Below, in pieces: positions 2,330 through 13,303 of a stretch of DNA of 64,000 nucleotides. A program made the position numbers and the translations under genes. Source of the DNA: Rhodospirillaceae bacterium (GTDB lineage: Bacteria; Pseudomonadota; Alphaproteobacteria; UBA6615); contig JABIVD010000029.1 in the NCBI GenBank assembly GCA_018667335.1, forward strand, positions 1 through 64,000. The letters are read 5' to 3'. The stretch's first letter is position 1. Each line of letters begins with the position of its first letter. Under the pieces are notes generated by a model, which saw only the letters and a program-made list of their open reading frames with translations, did not search any database and was not told where the DNA came from.

Positions 2330-3049
2330 TTAGCGCCCCAAATCCACGAGGCCCTTTTTCATCATCATTTCCGCAACGACCAGTTGCCATTCGAAATCAA
2401 TGTCCCAAGCGTAAACATCATCGATCAGGACCGATCCCTTGACGGCCCCGAACCGCCCTCTTTTGAGGAATGTGGAAGCTTTGGCCGCGAACAGATTGCA
2501 AAACATCTGCGCACCGGGTTTTGACTGCCGACTTCGTGCCGCCTCGCGCTCTTCCGGAAACATAAATTCCCACCTGCCATTCTCTCCGATAAAGGACAGA
2601 TTGTAGGGGTGCTTTCGATGATCCAGTTGCGACATCGTTGTAACCGAATCCAGCGCCGGATCCTGCGCGAACTGGTCGACCGCCGCGTCGATATGCTCAG
2701 GCTTCACAAAGGGTGATGTCGGTTGAATGAGAACGACAATCGCATCGCCCAACCCCTCATGATTCTGAAGATACTGAACCAGGTGCCGCACAACATCATC
2801 GGCCGTGACGTCATCGCCAGAAAGTTCCGCAGGCCGCAAAAAGGGCACCTTGGCGCCATACTGTTCCGCCACGGCCTCGATCTCCGGATCCTCGGTGGAG
2901 ACGTAAATATCGCCGACCTTTTGCGCAGCCTCTGACGCGCGGATCGCATAACTCAGCAGCGGTTCACCATCCAGCAGCGCAATGTTTTTTCGCGGGAATC
3001 TCTTCGATCCCCCCCGCGCCGGAATTACGACGATTGCTTTTTCATTCAT
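2330..3049 (-). CDS. neuA: CMP-sugar synthetase, acylneuraminate cytidylyltransferase family
   Basis: This 239-residue protein begins with the nucleotide-binding signature PARGGSKRFPRKN and continues with LLDGEPLLSYAIRAS, the hallmark of the NeuA/PseF/KdsB-type cytidylyltransferases. It is of usual length. These enzymes activate nonulosonic or other keto-acid sugars as CMP conjugates in the cytoplasm. It lies 27 bases after the aldolase-family gene and 42 bases before the transferase-like gene. Whether the product is CMP-Neu5Ac, CMP-pseudaminate, CMP-legionaminate or something else cannot be decided from this sequence, so the gene symbol is a family name only. Confidence 0.88.
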   Translation of the reverse strand: MNEKAIVVIPARGGSKRFPRKNIALLDGEPLLSYAIRASEAAQKVGDIYVSTEDPEIEAVAEQYGAKVPFLRPAELSGDDVTADDVVRHLVQYLQNHEGLGDAIVVLIQPTSPFVKPEHIDAAVDQFAQDPALDSVTTMSQLDHRKHPYNLSFIGENGRWEFMFPEEREAARSRQSKPGAQMFCNLFAAKASTFLKRGRFGAVKGSVLIDDVYAWDIDFEWQLVVAEMMMKKGLVDLGR

Positions 3050-3076: not shown

Positions 3077-3991
3077 CTAGTAGCGAAGCTCGCCGGATTC
3101 CAGATAATGCTCGTAATCTGCATAGACCAGATCCGCGGCAGCCCGTTCCTCTGCGTTGAGAGACCGGAAAGGTCGCGCACAGGTGTCCTGGCAAATGCCG
3201 CGTCGAGAAAGCAAATATTTCAACTCCGCAGTCGATTCGCCGTTATGCCTGTACGCCCCCTTGGGTATGCGCTTCAGAAATGCCATCACGGCACGATTTT
3301 TCTCCCTTGCTGCGCTCAATTTGTCCGCCTGTATCGCCTCATAAAGCTCGACCAGGAGTTCGGGAAAACAGGCGGCTGTGCTGGTCGAACTGCAGGCAGT
3401 CCCCAGGCACATGAAGGAAAAGAACTGACTGTCGGCCGCGCCGACCATCTGGAAATCCTCTCGGTCGAGCGCGAGGAAAGTCTGGTTAAGACGCAGATCA
3501 AAGCCGGCGACCTTGCACCCCGCAATGTTGGGATGGTCGCGCAGTCGCTGTACTGTCTCGATTGGAATCCCGCTGGTCCTCGTCGTGTTCTGATAAAGCC
3601 AGATCGGTAGAGGCGAGCGGTCCGCAATCGCGATATAGAGCTCTTCGACGGCTTCGCCGCTGACTTTGCCGTCATACGGAATGACATGAATACCGTCGAT
3701 CTTGGTATCGGCAACCTTGTCGATATAGTTCAGCGCCGCCTTGACCGAGAACGTCCCGCCGCCAACGAGCAATGGTGTCCGCCCGTCATTGACCTCCGCC
3801 ATGTGGCGCGCAGTGGCCACGCGCACATCTTCGGTGAGGTTCATCCCCTCCCCAGCCGAACCCAGAGCAAACATCGAAACATTATTGCCGGCGAGAAGAT
3901 CTGTAATCCGCTCTACCCCTTCGACGTCGGATTCCTCGTCTTCGGTCAACGGAGTAGGCACCACCGCCATCACACCCTTAATCAATCCCAT
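3077..3991 (-). CDS. DapA/NanA-family class I aldolase (dihydrodipicolinate synthase-like)
   Basis: Starting at the ATG of MGLIKGVMAVVPTPLT, the protein is about 304 residues, normal for the family; the longer GTG start at 4048 is rejected because family members begin at this point. Visible motifs are GSAGEG (the keto-acid carboxylate loop), the Tyr of LYQNTTRTSG and the Schiff-base Lys of IAGCKVAG. Members condense or cleave pyruvate with an aldehyde, as in dihydrodipicolinate synthase or N-acetylneuraminate lyase. It lies beside a CMP-sugar synthetase and across the divergent promoter from a NeuB homologue, so a role in making or editing a keto-acid sugar is likely, but the direction is unknown. 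Confidence 0.85.
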   Translation of the reverse strand: MGLIKGVMAVVPTPLTEDEESDVEGVERITDLLAGNNVSMFALGSAGEGMNLTEDVRVATARHMAEVNDGRTPLLVGGGTFSVKAALNYIDKVADTKIDGIHVIPYDGKVSGEAVEELYIAIADRSPLPIWLYQNTTRTSGIPIETVQRLRDHPNIAGCKVAGFDLRLNQTFLALDREDFQMVGAADSQFFSFMCLGTACSSTSTAACFPELLVELYEAIQADKLSAAREKNRAVMAFLKRIPKGAYRHNGESTAELKYLLSRRGICQDTCARPFRSLNAEERAAADLVYADYEHYLESGELRY

Positions 3992-5467: not shown

Positions 5468-6556
5468 CTATTGCCCGTCGGCAATCATCTCATCAAGCTC
5501 GGCGGAAAGAAATTCCCCAAGATATGATGCGGGAGGATGATCTCCATCGGCCCACGGATGCTCTATGGAATGGGGGAAGGATGGTGCCCTCACGCAGCGA
5601 AACTTCATCTGCTCGCACAATTGGAACATCCGCGCCCTAACATCCCTGGCGTTCTTGCTCAGATTGGCCTCGATCTTCCCAGCCAAAGCGGGAAATATCG
5701 GTGTTTCATAGATCAGTATTTTGGCTCCCGTTAGCGTGGCCACGTCGCGCAGCGCGCGGAAATCGGTCTCCATCAGCGGATAATCAGAATTCCGGAGACC
5801 GCGGACATAGCGGTAGGAATCAGGGTCAGCTGTGTCGAGATGGAACAGCGGCTCTCGGCTCCCATCCTCACCGTATCGCGATATTCTGGCCTGCCCAAAG
5901 CGGGTGCCAAGAAGACCGTTCAGCCGCTTGTACGCCGGCACGAGATGCAGCCGGACACGGGAAGCCAGATAACGGGCGTTCAATCCGGACGCCTCCCGAT
6001 CCAATTCGTGATAGCCAATGTTGTAAAGGTGCAGAACGATAGATTTCAAAGACTGACGCTGACTCACCAGGATACGCGCCTCTTCAATCCGTTCCGTTAC
6101 GAAAGCGGCGCTCCGCGGATATAGGGGCGCCTCGTTGTCGAAGGTGATCTCTGAGTGATTGAACTGCAGGACGGCATATTTGGGTGTTTTCCCTATTTCT
6201 TCCAGGGCGGCCATCATCCGCACGCTGTTCCTAAAGGACTGCGATCCAATTGAAAAATTGAACAGACTATCCGGCCTTTTCACGTCTTTCGTACCAACAG
6301 GATATGTCCGGCTATTGCCAAACAATCCAATGTCATAGGCAGGATGGGACGCAGCGTGGGCAAGCTTGATCGGCAGGATGTCCTCAACCGGCAATACATC
6401 CAGTGCGGCACGGTAGGGTTTGTTCTCGAGCGCCAGTGGCTCCCAAACAGGAGGCATCCAAAGCAGGAAGGAAGCCAGCAGAAGCAAGGCAGCCGTCCCT
6501 AACGCCCAGACCGTCACCGTATTCGGATGTCGTGATTCCGTTTCGGAACGGGTCAA
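5468..6556 (-). CDS. Membrane-anchored SGNH/AlgJ-like protein, putative MBOAT partner
   Basis: A single hydrophobic segment (TVWALGTAALLLLASFLLW) near the N-terminus is followed by a large, presumably periplasmic domain with GLFGNSRTYPVG, resembling the G-x-S block of SGNH-type acyltransferase or esterase folds, and a late DGDHPPASY that could supply the Asp/His pair. The TTG at 6554-6556 is chosen because GGGGGA sits 7 bases upstream and gives a natural signal anchor; an in-frame ATG at 6619 would add 21 residues. The MBOAT gene starts 32 bases downstream. This pair resembles AlgI-AlgJ/X systems, but similarity is by pattern only. Confidence 0.6.
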   Translation of the reverse strand: MTRSETESRHPNTVTVWALGTAALLLLASFLLWMPPVWEPLALENKPYRAALDVLPVEDILPIKLAHAASHPAYDIGLFGNSRTYPVGTKDVKRPDSLFNFSIGSQSFRNSVRMMAALEEIGKTPKYAVLQFNHSEITFDNEAPLYPRSAAFVTERIEEARILVSQRQSLKSIVLHLYNIGYHELDREASGLNARYLASRVRLHLVPAYKRLNGLLGTRFGQARISRYGEDGSREPLFHLDTADPDSYRYVRGLRNSDYPLMETDFRALRDVATLTGAKILIYETPIFPALAGKIEANLSKNARDVRARMFQLCEQMKFRCVRAPSFPHSIEHPWADGDHPPASYLGEFLSAELDEMIADGQ

Positions 6557-6649
6557 TTGCCAATCCCCCGGTCTGCGCAAGACAATAGTTGCATGTTCCA
6601 GGAATCCGCCGCCCTGCACCGGGAGACCCCAGGCAGTTCACACAAAACA

Positions 6650-8671: not shown

Positions 8672-9160
8672 TCATGCGACCCTAACTCGGCTAAGAGGTA
8701 TCGTAACTTTGACCTGACGCCCCATCAGCTGAAGTAGAATTTCGGCCCGGCGCGGCCCAGTCAGCCGATGAATGATCCCCGGCTGACAATCGAGCGGGCC
8801 ATCGGAAAGCACAATCTCGTCACCGGCCTGAAGCATCGGATAGGGATGTGGCAGCACGATCAGGCCATCTTCATTCTCGCGACCGATGATGTCTTCGACA
8901 ATGCCGGCCGGCACCGCGCTCGGCCTGGGTCCGAACTGGACAAGACCGACGACGCCGAACGTGCCGTTGACCGAACGCCACAAGTCGGCGTCGAGATCCA
9001 GTTCAACAAACAGATAGCGCGGGAACAGCGGCACCCGGCGCACCTTCGAAGGGATCGCAGAAATCTGTGGGCAGAAGGCACGAAAGCCCTGTTGCGCGAG
9101 GTTGACCTCGGCAATGTGCTCGCCGTTTGGTTTGGTGCGCACCACATACCAGCGCTTCAT
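8672..9160 (-). CDS. NusG/RfaH-family transcription antiterminator
   Basis: The 162-residue protein opens with MKRWYVVRTKPNGE and carries VPLFPRYLFVELD, the NGN-domain signature of NusG paralogues, followed by a KOW-like C-terminal part with AGDEIVLSDGPL. Its length matches specialised paralogues such as RfaH. These bind RNA polymerase and reduce pausing or Rho termination over long surface-polysaccharide operons. The gene overlaps its upstream neighbour by 4 bases (ATGA at 9157-9160), so the two are translated together. It precedes roughly 8.7 kb of glycan genes on the same strand, which fits processive antitermination of its own operon. Confidence 0.9.
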   Translation of the reverse strand: MKRWYVVRTKPNGEHIAEVNLAQQGFRAFCPQISAIPSKVRRVPLFPRYLFVELDLDADLWRSVNGTFGVVGLVQFGPRPSAVPAGIVEDIIGRENEDGLIVLPHPYPMLQAGDEIVLSDGPLDCQPGIIHRLTGPRRAEILLQLMGRQVKVTIPLSRVRVA

Positions 9161-9828
9161 GTCGCGTCTCCGACATCCGGTGGTGCCGCCCGGGAAATCT
9201 TCAACATGTCGACCGCCAGCACTTGATCTGCCGACAGACGTTCAGCCCACTCCTCATAGGTGCGTTGAGGCGCGCGCATGTCCGTGATTATCACCGCCTC
9301 GACCGGATCCAGTTCACCAATATCCGCAACAACGCGCAGACCGGCGAGGCGGCTGCCGGCAGCGCTCGGGTCGACGACACCCACAATTTCGACGGGACTG
9401 TCGAGCGCGGTCAGCGCCGTGATCTCGGCAAGCTCGCCGGCTCCGATAAGCGCCAGCCGCGTAAGCCTGCGATTCGCCGCCATCACACAGATCGTCGAAG
9501 ACTGCTCGCGCGCATGACGAAAAAACTCGAGCGAGGTGGAGAGATACTCACCCGTCAGACGTGCCTTTTCCGAGAAGCCGTTCGGCGTGATGTAATAGGC
9601 ATAACGGTTCGCGGGAACCTGCTGCACCTTGATCCAACCCTTTTTCACACACCGCTTGAGGTAGGCGTTGGCCAGGCCCAGAGCAATTCCAAGCTCTTTT
9701 GCGAGCGAACGTTGCGACAACGCACTATTCTCTTCGATCGCTGACAGCATCCCGAGCGTGATTGCCACCTCGTTCGAAGATGTTTCTTCTGCGGTGTTCA
9801 AAACCGGTTTGTGTATGGTAACGTTCAC
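9157..9828 (-). CDS. Winged-helix regulator with C-terminal Rossmann-like domain
   Basis: Residues after NEVAITLGML form a MarR-like winged helix with the helix-turn-helix SQRSLAKELGIALGLANAYL and wing KGWIKVQQVPANRYAYYIT. The C-terminal half, RLALIGAGELAEITAL then VEIVGVVDPSAAG, looks like the nucleotide-sugar or NAD-binding fold seen at the N-terminus of PglD and FlaA1-type proteins. The open frame extends to a TTG at 9864, but a promoter-like element and palindrome cover that stretch, so translation must begin later. GTG 9828, GTG 9768 and ATG 9750 are candidates. It is probably the autoregulated first gene of the leftward operon. Confidence 0.75.
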   Translation of the reverse strand: MNVTIHKPVLNTAEETSSNEVAITLGMLSAIEENSALSQRSLAKELGIALGLANAYLKRCVKKGWIKVQQVPANRYAYYITPNGFSEKARLTGEYLSTSLEFFRHAREQSSTICVMAANRRLTRLALIGAGELAEITALTALDSPVEIVGVVDPSAAGSRLAGLRVVADIGELDPVEAVIITDMRAPQRTYEEWAERLSADQVLAVDMLKISRAAPPDVGDAT

Positions 9829-9861
9829 GAAATGAACATACGGTGTTCGAGTCGTGAACGT
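9821..9861. promoter_or_regulatory. Concentric double palindrome, candidate operator
   Basis: The 10-base arm acgttcacga (9821-9830) is perfectly mirrored by tcgtgaacgt (9852-9861), and an inner arm gaaca (9834-9838) is mirrored by tgttc (9844-9848). Both repeats share the same centre, base 9841. On the minus strand the element overlaps a TTGACG/TATGTT promoter-like pair (9864-9859 and 9840-9835, 18-base spacer). It therefore looks like an operator governing the regulator gene and perhaps both divergent operons. Confidence 0.6.
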
Positions 9862-9864
9862 CAA
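9835..9864 (-). promoter_or_regulatory. Candidate sigma-70-type promoter of the leftward glycan operon
   Basis: Reading leftward, TTGACG (9864-9859) and TATGTT (9840-9835) are separated by 18 bases, close to the -35/-10 consensus. Transcription would begin near 9828, before the regulator gene. The element lies inside the concentric palindrome. This is a pattern match without experimental support. Confidence 0.45.
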
Positions 9865-9975: not shown

Positions 9976-11061
9976 ATGACCAGTGTGAAGATAATTGGGG
10001 CCGGATCGATCGGTAATCATCTCGCCAACGCCGCCCGGAGCAAAGGCTGGGATGTCACCCTGTGCGACATCGACCCGGCTGCGCTCGAACGCACGCAAAC
10101 CTCGATTTATCCGTCACGCTACGGAGAATGGGACACAGCGATCCGTTTGAGCACGGTCGCAGATGCACCGCGCGGCGAGTTCGACTGGATCTTCATTGGC
10201 ACACCGCCGGACGTTCACATGATGCTGGCGCTCGACGCGCTGGAAGAGCGCCCAAAGGGAATCCTGATCGAAAAGCCACTGGCGACCCCCGATCTCGCCC
10301 ATTGCCAAAGCGTCTTCGAACGATGTGGTGAATTGGGCGTCCGCGCGTTCGTGGGCTACGACCATGTCGTGTCCCAAAGCGCCGAGCGGTTTTGCGCCCT
10401 TGCCCGTACCGTTGACGACGTGAAGACGCTGGACGTCTCGTTTCGCGAACATTGGCAGGGCATATTCAACGCTCACCCATGGCTGTCCGGCCCGGCTGAT
10501 ACCTATCTGGGTTACTGGGCCCGCGGTGGTGGCGCCTGCGGCGAACATTCGCACGCCCTCAACCTTTGGCAAAATTTCAGCCATGTCATCGGCGCCGGCC
10601 GGGTTAGTAAGGTCTCCGCCATGATGGACTATGTAGAAAATGGCGACGCGAAGTATGACCAGCTCGCCCTGTTGAATCTGGAAACGGAGTCCGGGCTTGT
10701 CGGCCGTGTTGTCCAGGATGTGGTGACCCAACCGGCCCTCAAATGGGCACGCCTGCAGGGCGGCGACACCGCGATCGAATGGCAATGCAACGCCGCGCCC
10801 TATCTCGACGTCGTCCGCGTCGAGGGGGCGGTGCCCTCTGAGGACGTATTCGACAAAACCCGACCGCTTGACTTCATCCAAGAGCTCGATCATCTCGAAG
10901 CGGCGGTCGCGAGCGGCGAGCCCTCGCCAATAGATTTGGCGCGCGGTCTCGATTCTATGCTGGTGATCGCAGCCGCCCACATGTCAGCGCAGCGTAGCTG
11001 CAATGTCGCAATCAATTATAACGCCGGCTATTGCAGCGACGCGCTGCACCCGGTCCAGTGA
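9976..11061 (+). CDS. Gfo/Idh/MocA-family oxidoreductase
   Basis: From the ATG at 9976 the protein starts MTSVKIIGAGSIGNHLANAA, a Rossmann fold with GAGSIG, and contains WIFIGTPPDVH and the family hallmark LIEKPLATPD. Length is 361 residues, usual for the family. The longer frame from 9946 is rejected because it adds ten residues before a normal N-terminus. As first gene of the rightward operon, directly before a NeuB homologue, it probably oxidises or reduces a sugar intermediate of the acidic sugar. Its partner enzyme may be the related dehydrogenase at the left edge of the window. Confidence 0.85.
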   Translation: MTSVKIIGAGSIGNHLANAARSKGWDVTLCDIDPAALERTQTSIYPSRYGEWDTAIRLSTVADAPRGEFDWIFIGTPPDVHMMLALDALEERPKGILIEKPLATPDLAHCQSVFERCGELGVRAFVGYDHVVSQSAERFCALARTVDDVKTLDVSFREHWQGIFNAHPWLSGPADTYLGYWARGGGACGEHSHALNLWQNFSHVIGAGRVSKVSAMMDYVENGDAKYDQLALLNLETESGLVGRVVQDVVTQPALKWARLQGGDTAIEWQCNAAPYLDVVRVEGAVPSEDVFDKTRPLDFIQELDHLEAAVASGEPSPIDLARGLDSMLVIAAAHMSAQRSCNVAINYNAGYCSDALHPVQ

Positions 11062-11080: not shown

Positions 11081-12631
11081 ATGACAGAAGATGGTTCACG
11101 CTACAATTTCGACGGCCTGGTGGTGTTCGATCTCGCCAACAATCACCAAGGCGACATCGATCACGGCTGCCGGATTATCCGCGCAATGGGCGAGCAGGCA
11201 GCCAAACACGGCGTCAAGGCGGCGATGAAGTTCCAGTTCCGGCAACTGGATACCTTCATCCATAAGGCGCATCTCGATGGCAGCTCGAACAAACATGTCT
11301 CGCGGTTTCTATCGACACGGCTCGACCTTGACGGCGTTCAAAAGCTGTTCGACGAGGTGAAAGCGGCCGGACTGCTGAGCATGTGCACGCCGTTCGACGA
11401 GGAATCGGTCGACGTTATCCAGGACATGGGCTTCGACATCCTGAAAATCGCCAGCTGTTCGGCAGCGGACTGGCCGTTGCTCGAAAAGGCCACCGGAACG
11501 GGGTTGCCCATCGTTTGCTCCACCGGCGGCCTTGATCTGTCGCAGGTCGATGACCTCAACAGTTTCTTTAACCACCGTGGCGTCGATTTCGCGCTGATGC
11601 ACTGCGTGTCGGTCTATCCGACGCCGGCGAACATGCTTGAGTTGAACCAGATCGACCTGTTTCGCAACCGCTACCCCGAACCGCCGATCGGCTGGTCGAC
11701 CCACGAGGATCCGGACTCCCTGGGACCGGTCCAGGTTGCGGTGGCAAAGGGCGCTCAGCTGTTCGAGCGCCATGTCGGCATATCGACCGATACCATCCAG
11801 CTCAATGGTTACTCCTCGACTCCCGAACAAGTCGACGCATGGCTGGGCGCGCTGGTCGAGGCCCGCGCCATGTGCGGTGGCGTGGCACGACCGGAGGTCA
11901 GCGAGGAAGAGCGCGAAGCGCTGCTCACGCTGGAGCGGGGGGTCTACCTGCGCGAACCCGTGACGGCCGGTGAAGAAGTAACCGCGGACAATATCTATTT
12001 CGCGATGCCGATCGAGCCAGGCCAGTTGGCGAGCGGGCGCTTCAGGCCCGGCATCGTGGCAGAACGTGACTTCGCAACCGATGCCGCACTGGCCCTGGAT
12101 GGAATTGCACTGCCGGCGCCACCGGCGGACCATATCCTGAAAAAGGCCGTCCACGAGGTGAAGGCCATGCTGCACCAGGCCGAGGTGCATCTGAACACGG
12201 ACTTCAAAATCGAGTTCTCGCACCATTATGGCATCGAGAAATTTCGCGAGGTCGGCGCCATCCTGATCGACATCGTCAACCGGGAATACTGCAAGAAGAT
12301 CATCGTGCAACTCCCGGGACAGGTCCACCCGCAGCATTTCCACAAACGCAAGGAAGAGACGTTCCAGGTTCTCAACGGAACCCTCAACGTCACGGTCGAT
12401 GGTCGCAAACGGGTGCTAGAACCCGGCGACACCTGCCTTGTGCAACCGGGCATGTGGCATAATTTCTGGACCGAGACCGGCTGTATCTTCGAGGAAATCT
12501 CGACCCGCCATTACAACGACGATTCCTATTATAAGGACAAGAGCATCAACGCGATGGAACGCGCCGAGCGAAAGACCATTGTAAACCACTGGGGGCGTTA
12601 CGAACTGCTGGACCAAATCGATCCGGCGTAG
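11081..12631 (+). CDS. NeuB-family keto-acid sugar synthase with SAF domain and C-terminal cupin
   Basis: The ATG at 11081 follows a GGAG-type ribosome site and gives 516 residues. Residues from about 10 to 270 match the NeuB TIM barrel (VVFDLANNHQGDIDHG, MKFQFRQ, LKIASCSAADWPLL, IGWSTHEDP). A SAF-like antifreeze domain follows near 283 (LERGVYLREPVTAGEEVTAD). A cupin is then fused from about 400, with PQHFHKRKEETFQVLNG and GDTCLVQPGMWHNF giving metal-ligand-like His and Glu residues. Standard NeuB proteins end after the SAF domain near 350 residues. The barrel should condense phosphoenolpyruvate with a hexosamine or related aldose; the cupin's role is unknown. Confidence 0.85.
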   Translation: MTEDGSRYNFDGLVVFDLANNHQGDIDHGCRIIRAMGEQAAKHGVKAAMKFQFRQLDTFIHKAHLDGSSNKHVSRFLSTRLDLDGVQKLFDEVKAAGLLSMCTPFDEESVDVIQDMGFDILKIASCSAADWPLLEKATGTGLPIVCSTGGLDLSQVDDLNSFFNHRGVDFALMHCVSVYPTPANMLELNQIDLFRNRYPEPPIGWSTHEDPDSLGPVQVAVAKGAQLFERHVGISTDTIQLNGYSSTPEQVDAWLGALVEARAMCGGVARPEVSEEEREALLTLERGVYLREPVTAGEEVTADNIYFAMPIEPGQLASGRFRPGIVAERDFATDAALALDGIALPAPPADHILKKAVHEVKAMLHQAEVHLNTDFKIEFSHHYGIEKFREVGAILIDIVNREYCKKIIVQLPGQVHPQHFHKRKEETFQVLNGTLNVTVDGRKRVLEPGDTCLVQPGMWHNFWTETGCIFEEISTRHYNDDSYYKDKSINAMERAERKTIVNHWGRYELLDQIDPA

Positions 12632-12667: not shown

Positions 12668-13303
12668 GTGAAGGCTTTGAAGCGCAAGACGGTCTTCCTG
12701 TTCGACTTCGACGGCACCCTCATGCAGTCGAACGCGATCAAGCGCGAAGCGTTCTTCACCGCCATTTCCGACCACCCCGAAGCAATCGACACGTTGCGCC
12801 ATATTCTCGATGGACCGAATCCCGGTGACCGATACGCGGTATTCCGCGAACTCGAGCGACGCCTTCCCGATATTGACGCCACAGAACGCACGCGTGCTTA
12901 CGGCGACATCTCCGAGCGCGCGATTCTGGAGGCCGAGGAAGTGACGGGTGCCAGTGCCCTTTTGGAAACACTGCATGATCGCGGGGCGGCGGCGGTGATA
13001 AATTCCGCAACACCGGAAGCGCCGCTACGCGAAGTCGTCGCCCAACTTCGGTTTGCCCGGTGGGTCAATAGCGTTCATGGCGGCCCCGCGGCAAAGGCGG
13101 AGAATGCCCGTCAGGCATTGTCCAAGCTCGGCCAGGATCCCCACGATGCGGTGGTCATCGGAGACGGAGAAAACGACCACGCTTGCGCGCGTGAGCTTAA
13201 CTGCGCGTTCATTGCGATCGACAGCGACGGCAATGATTTCGACACGCCACCGGCGGTTCGAGCGCCGGATCTGGCCACCGTGCTGCGCTGGTTGCAGTCC
13301 TGA
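12668..13303 (+). CDS. HAD-superfamily phosphatase
   Basis: This 211-residue protein starts at a GTG and contains the HAD motifs in order: FLFDFDGTLMQS (nucleophile Asp), VINSATP (motif II), PAAKAENARQAL (motif III Lys) and VVIGDGENDHACA (acidic motif IV). It lies 36 bases after the NeuB-cupin gene and one base before asnB. Nonulosonate and Kdo pathways often need a phosphatase after the synthase step, so dephosphorylation of a 9-phosphate-type product is a reasonable inference. The cap domain is the small helical type. Confidence 0.85.
   Translation: MKALKRKTVFLFDFDGTLMQSNAIKREAFFTAISDHPEAIDTLRHILDGPNPGDRYAVFRELERRLPDIDATERTRAYGDISERAILEAEEVTGASALLETLHDRGAAAVINSATPEAPLREVVAQLRFARWVNSVHGGPAAKAENARQALSKLGQDPHDAVVIGDGENDHACARELNCAFIAIDSDGNDFDTPPAVRAPDLATVLRWLQS

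Follow-up and report, generated by a model that had tools for sequence, protein, structure and literature searches.

A NeuB-SAF-cupin fusion protein as a candidate isomerase-synthase for a 3-deoxy-ulosonic acid

The window analysed here, a stretch of 64,000 nucleotides from a Rhodospirillaceae bacterium, encodes a protein in which a NeuB-type synthase and its SAF domain continue into a further C-terminal domain. A preliminary description of this DNA had read the extension as a cupin that may couple condensation with a further modification of the keto-acid sugar. What would such a domain contribute to a PEP-condensing synthase, and would it act before or after the condensation? The fusion protein and its domains are as follows.

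11081..12631, + strand: NeuB-SAF-cupin fusion protein, 516 aa (open reading frame, Pfam, lengths and conservation of relatives)
11117..11875, + strand: NeuB-type PEP-condensing TIM barrel, residues 13-265 (Pfam NeuB, structure match to 3g8r, conservation)
11903..12115, + strand: SAF-like domain, residues 275-345 (profile alignment to 4ipi, superposition on 3g8r)
12116..12589, + strand: D-lyxose-isomerase-like cupin domain, residues 346-503 (profile search, Pfam, structure comparison)

A GGAG motif stands 5' of the ATG at 11081; a start at 11003 would give a longer reading frame, overlapping the upstream gene by 58 nt. In Pfam searches, the fusion protein matched NeuB (PF03102) over residues 38-238 (E 3e-37, 128.7 bits against a cut-off of 22.1) and Cupin_2 over residues 412-465 (E 2.5e-13, above the cut-off). 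The cupin was also covered by Lyx_isomer (PF07385; E 2e-9, 37.4 bits against a cut-off of 20.8), and AraC_binding was matched as well. Pfam gave no SAF match here but did so in 6 of 37 relatives. An AlphaFold model built from these 37 relatives reached a mean pLDDT of 92.8. Together with the 59 loci that match through both domains, these data bear out the proposed architecture, including the roughly 160 added residues (about 346-505). Two other explanations were rejected: a frameshift or misassembly artefact is ruled out by 59 loci of the same domain order from independent genomes, and an extended SAF or unrelated region by the model and profiles, which describe a complete D-lyxose-isomerase-like cupin. 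Confidence in the fusion, its residue conservation and its gene cassette is high.

The first ~335 residues of the model, SAF region included, superpose on 3g8r (335 columns, rmsd 1.5, TM 0.95, 45% identity), an SpsE-like protein of Chromobacterium violaceum. The two belong to the same NeuB-SAF subfamily, but 3g8r, whose function is not established, lacks the cupin. The active-site residues of N. meningitidis NANAS served as the comparison set (PMC6795526). The corresponding positions of the NeuB part are mostly kept (K50, Q52, K122, S125, S147, Y179, S206, H208, E229 and H231), and its Lys, Gln, Ser and His residues are invariant among the 37 aligned fusions. To the NANAS set we added Lys53, Ser132, Ser154 and His236, which we take to belong to it. 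By these alignments, the NeuB part retains the residues for PEP and metal. Its scores lie below the cut-offs of two equivalog models, N-acetylneuraminate synthase (TIGR03569; 115.6 bits, cut-off 399.65) and the pseudaminic acid synthase PseI (TIGR03586; 110.2 bits, cut-off 340.25).

The SAF-like domain bears on the substrate. In Neu5Ac synthase, SAF Arg314 positions the N-acetyl group (PMC6795526). The residue of the fusion protein aligned with Arg314 of NmeNANAS is M309, in an alignment anchored by 4ipi, itself the R314A mutant. Across the fusions this position holds Met in 32, Ile in 3 and Phe in 2, and Arg in 0 of 37. Because the arginine is replaced throughout, an N-acetylated substrate would be disfavoured, and the HexNAc-derived substrate suggested earlier is doubtful. 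The loss argues against N-acetylation without proving KDN, since human NANS retains the SAF arginine yet also accepts Man-6-P.

We then turn to the cupin half, whose motifs lie at the following positions.

12317..12379, + strand: cupin motif 1, residues 413-433, with ligands H419, H421 and E426, plus K424
12425..12469, + strand: cupin motif 2, residues 449-463, with ligand H460
12494..12523, + strand: segment E472...D481, resembling E156...D163 of Thermofilum D-lyxose isomerase (register of the Asp uncertain)

The H-x-H and late His/Trp signatures noticed previously form a complete cupin motif, H419-x-H421-x4-E426 followed by P-G-M-W-H460. H421, E426 and H460 are invariant in all 37 aligned fusions and H419 is present in 34, with Gln in the other 3, so that none of these homologues has lost both proposed metal ligands. 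In a profile search against the PDB, the D-lyxose isomerase 2y0o ranked top (2.7e-14), and 7nzo scored 4e-12; both alignments span the N-terminal helix, the core and the tail. Quercetinase was about equally strong, with an alignment limited to the core. Foldseek ranked D-lyxose isomerases first and archaeal phosphomannose isomerases next. The cupin model matches 2y0o with an rmsd of 1.8 over 164 columns and 26% identity, alongside 3kmh, 3mpb and 7nzp; identities to D-lyxose isomerases range from 19 to 26%. Lyx_isomer was matched by every one of the 37 fusions (E<=0.01), while the D-lyxose/D-mannose isomerase equivalog NF051472 gave 29.6 bits, far under its cut-off of 350.

The active-site residues follow the same pattern. 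In the Thermofilum enzyme (TsLI), K62, H75, H77, K86, E88, H143, E156 and D163 hold sugar and metal; the E. coli enzyme is inactive when its residues equivalent to K86, E156 and D163 are mutated (PMC8378251). The first seven align with K406, H419, H421, K424, E426, H460 and E472 of the fusion, and all of these except H419 are kept in 37 of 37 sequences. TsLI D163 aligns with the variable N479; D481, two residues on, is invariant. The fusion cupin thus has in common with YdaE (2y0o), TsLI (7nzo) and the E. coli enzyme (3kmh) a fold with an N-terminal helix, four metal ligands and an active-site Lys/Lys/Glu set. It differs from D-lyxose/D-mannose isomerases in a shorter loop from HxH to Glu, in its fusion to a PEP-condensing enzyme and in two further invariant motifs outside the isomerase set, S380-H381-H382 and R497-K498-T499, for which phosphate binding is a guess. 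That the cupin is of the metal type and sugar isomerase- or epimerase-like is well supported.

An enzyme of this kind could work on either side of the condensation. Its place C-terminal to the synthase, the existence of cupin epimerases in sugar pathways and the two additional invariant motifs, which could bind a charged product, would suit an epimerase or isomerase of the finished ulosonic acid. Such a role is unlikely given the conserved metal-binding residue set of D-lyxose isomerases; the epimerase-type cupins known to us (e.g. RmlC) are metal-free and absent from the best profile and structure matches. Alternatively, the cupin may be catalytically inactive, a sugar sensor or oligomerisation domain controlling the synthase, as cupins also act as binding domains (compare the AraC_binding match) and unfused members of the clade (3g8r, L064 and L066) do without it. 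We consider this improbable, as an invariant full metal site with catalytic Lys and Glu across about ten phyla is unexpected for a mere scaffold.

Since the closest relatives are aldose-ketose isomerases whose catalytic set is conserved, the cupin is more likely a supplier of aldose. We therefore favour, with a probability of roughly 0.55, a bifunctional isomerase-synthase in which an aldose-ketose isomerase would act upstream of the NeuB part. Of the coupling proposed in the preliminary description, the isomerase- or epimerase-like cupin stands, and modification of the product is less well supported than upstream aldose supply.

The genes around the fusion were compared over 57 distinct loci, counted by hand from a table, with many contigs cut. 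Three partners recur.

9979..11061, + strand: Gfo/Idh/MocA-type oxidoreductase, directly upstream of the fusion in 40/57 loci
12668..13303, + strand: HAD-family phosphatase, directly downstream in 36/57 loci
2330..3049, - strand: NeuA/PseF-like CMP-nonulosonate cytidylyltransferase, at most 10 kb from the fusion in 39/57 loci

The neighbourhood comparison thus yields a recurring cassette, and the window itself keeps the order Gfo/Idh, fusion, HAD, with the CMP-transferase ~8 kb off on the opposite strand. Synthase, phosphatase and CMP-transferase are encoded together, as the Kdn-9-phosphate pathway set requires. A dehydratase-aminotransferase-acetyltransferase set does not recur as a unit in the fusion cassette; within flanks of ~10 kb, epimerase- or dehydratase-type genes occur at 15 loci and a DegT aminotransferase at 5. 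The HAD gene also adjoins the cupin-less synthase at L066, and therefore the cupin is no stand-in for the phosphatase. At that locus (L066:9977-12461, Candidatus Kaiserbacteria), the synthase, a cytidylyltransferase that is KdsB-like by eye and the HAD phosphatase stand in a row. A few distant fusions (L059, L060, L062 and L067) lack adjoining HAD and Gfo/Idh genes. In the most distant ones (L060:11497-13341, L059, L062, L067 and L029), a ThDP-enzyme-like reading frame, acetolactate-synthase-like by eye, follows the fusion in their place, and the route to the sugar may differ there.

Other genes of the window were noted in passing. A DHDPS/NanA-like aldolase gene (3077-3991, - strand) adjoins the CMP-transferase; its product could cleave a ulosonic acid or make one from pyruvate. 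It was rejected as a cassette member, having no relative in other fusion loci. A 383-aa reading frame (5468-6619, - strand) next to an MBOAT O-acyltransferase gene gave no match in Pfam and NCBIfam, and the border of the polysaccharide cluster holds a NusG/RfaH-like gene (8672-9864, - strand) beside a winged-helix (MarR-like) regulator.

In the isomerase-synthase that we propose, the C-terminal cupin, of the metal-dependent D-lyxose/D-mannose isomerase type, would convert a ketose into an aldose, most simply fructose-6-phosphate into mannose-6-phosphate or a close analogue. The N-terminal NeuB-SAF part would condense PEP with this aldose, giving the phosphate of a 3-deoxy-ulosonic acid, and the HAD enzyme encoded next door would take off the phosphate. 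The resulting acid, KDN or one resembling it, would then be activated by the CMP-transferase for use in a surface polysaccharide. Beyond the observed domains, conserved residues and conserved cassette, we infer here the isomerase activity, its direction, the phosphorylation of the substrate, the identity of the product and the role of the Gfo/Idh enzyme. KDN itself is a possible product, and we suggest it only tentatively.

The step from fructose-6-phosphate to mannose-6-phosphate has a difficulty: KDN synthesis does not call for the Gfo/Idh enzyme, which is left without a task. Mannose-6-phosphate may also arise without the fusion, because a PMI-type protein of the ordinary kind (C36, a 483-aa frame) is encoded in the host genome, and the real substrate of the fusion may differ from this precursor. 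We can therefore conceive of a variant of the isomerase-synthase, itself tentative, in which the isomerase feeds a pentose or unusual hexose, the product is not KDN but a C8 or a rare C9 ulosonic acid, and the Gfo/Idh enzyme shapes the ketose by redox chemistry. D-lyxose isomerases do act on xylulose and lyxose (PMC8378251), an oxidoreductase absent from known KDN routes adjoins most of the fusions, a normal PMI is present in the host, and the cupin-less synthase of L066 is paired with a KdsB-like enzyme and HAD. The CMP-transferases in the window and related loci, however, are NeuA/PseF-like, not KdsB-like. A further-reaching and rather doubtful reading is that a widely distributed pathway leads to a 3-deoxy-ulosonic acid not described so far (not KDN, Neu, Leg, Pse or Kdo); the fused enzyme would hand a rare or unstable aldose from one of its sites to the other, and a dedicated Gfo/Idh enzyme would set the stereochemistry. 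The host genome contains three further ordinary NeuB genes (G000 C61, C18 and C60), and for this reason the organism probably makes several nonulosonic acids.

To assess how widespread the architecture is, we consider a scan with one genome per species, in which the 59 loci share 44-60% identity. Tree labels, which are approximate as many of the genomes are MAGs, place them in Pseudomonadota, Nitrospirota, Myxococcota, Thermodesulfobacteriota, Bacteroidota, Actinomycetota, Acidobacteriota, Verrucomicrobiota, Melainabacteria and Fidelibacterota. NeuB-SAF-cupin is an old and stable architecture found in about ten phyla. The fusion occurs in 12 of 398 Pseudomonadota genomes. Its presence is patchy, since none of 59 other relatives searched, of which 6 belong to the same genus and 17 to the same family, gave a full-length match; horizontal spread is likely. 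No plasmid-borne fusion covering 80% of the query was found. In Magnetovibrio blakemorei the gene is present twice, as identical copies on two contigs (L007 and L008). A stand-alone cupin of the fusion type was not detected in the 398 Pseudomonadota genomes (E<=1e-15), where all 12 cupin matches lie in open frames of at least 500 aa, nor at E<=1e-3 in the genomes of the cupin-less synthases L064 and L066. In the tree, the fusions cluster and these two fall inside on long branches, a topology compatible with one origin followed by losses and with other histories.

Fused synthases of related kinds have been described. In Serratia marcescens KL1/KL2, whose capsule contains KDN, NeuB carries a COG1082 sugar-isomerase domain (PMC9000132); a sugar-isomerase-type domain is thus added there too, but with a xylose-isomerase-like TIM barrel fold. 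The NeuB of Leptospira interrogans has a C-terminal domain described as a phosphatase, with a phosphorylated route proposed (PMC3438082); here too an 'adapter' enzyme is fused to a NulO synthase, though the added domain and the proposed step differ. The Kdn-9-P pathway of Bacteroides thetaiotaomicron and Prymnesium parvum proceeds through a sugar phosphate with a synthase, a phosphatase and a CMP-transferase (PMC6200933). The fusion loci encode the same three-enzyme set, to which they add the isomerase domain and a Gfo/Idh partner; the phosphatases are likened by role only. Kdo synthesis runs from the isomerase KdsD through the PEP synthase KdsA and the phosphatase KdsC to the CMP-transferase KdsB, and by analogy the fusion would correspond to KdsD and KdsA in one chain. 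No published NeuB-cupin fusion was found in the literature searched. The joining of an adapter enzyme to NeuB is already known; judged by the papers searched, the cupin variant is new.

If the proposed function is correct, a single enzyme would lead from a ketose to a sialic-type surface sugar, bypassing the UDP-GlcNAc route on which predictions of nonulosonic acids from genomes are usually based. Clusters of this kind would then be misread as N-acetylneuraminate synthase clusters, and the cupin would be one more type of fusion partner on NeuB.
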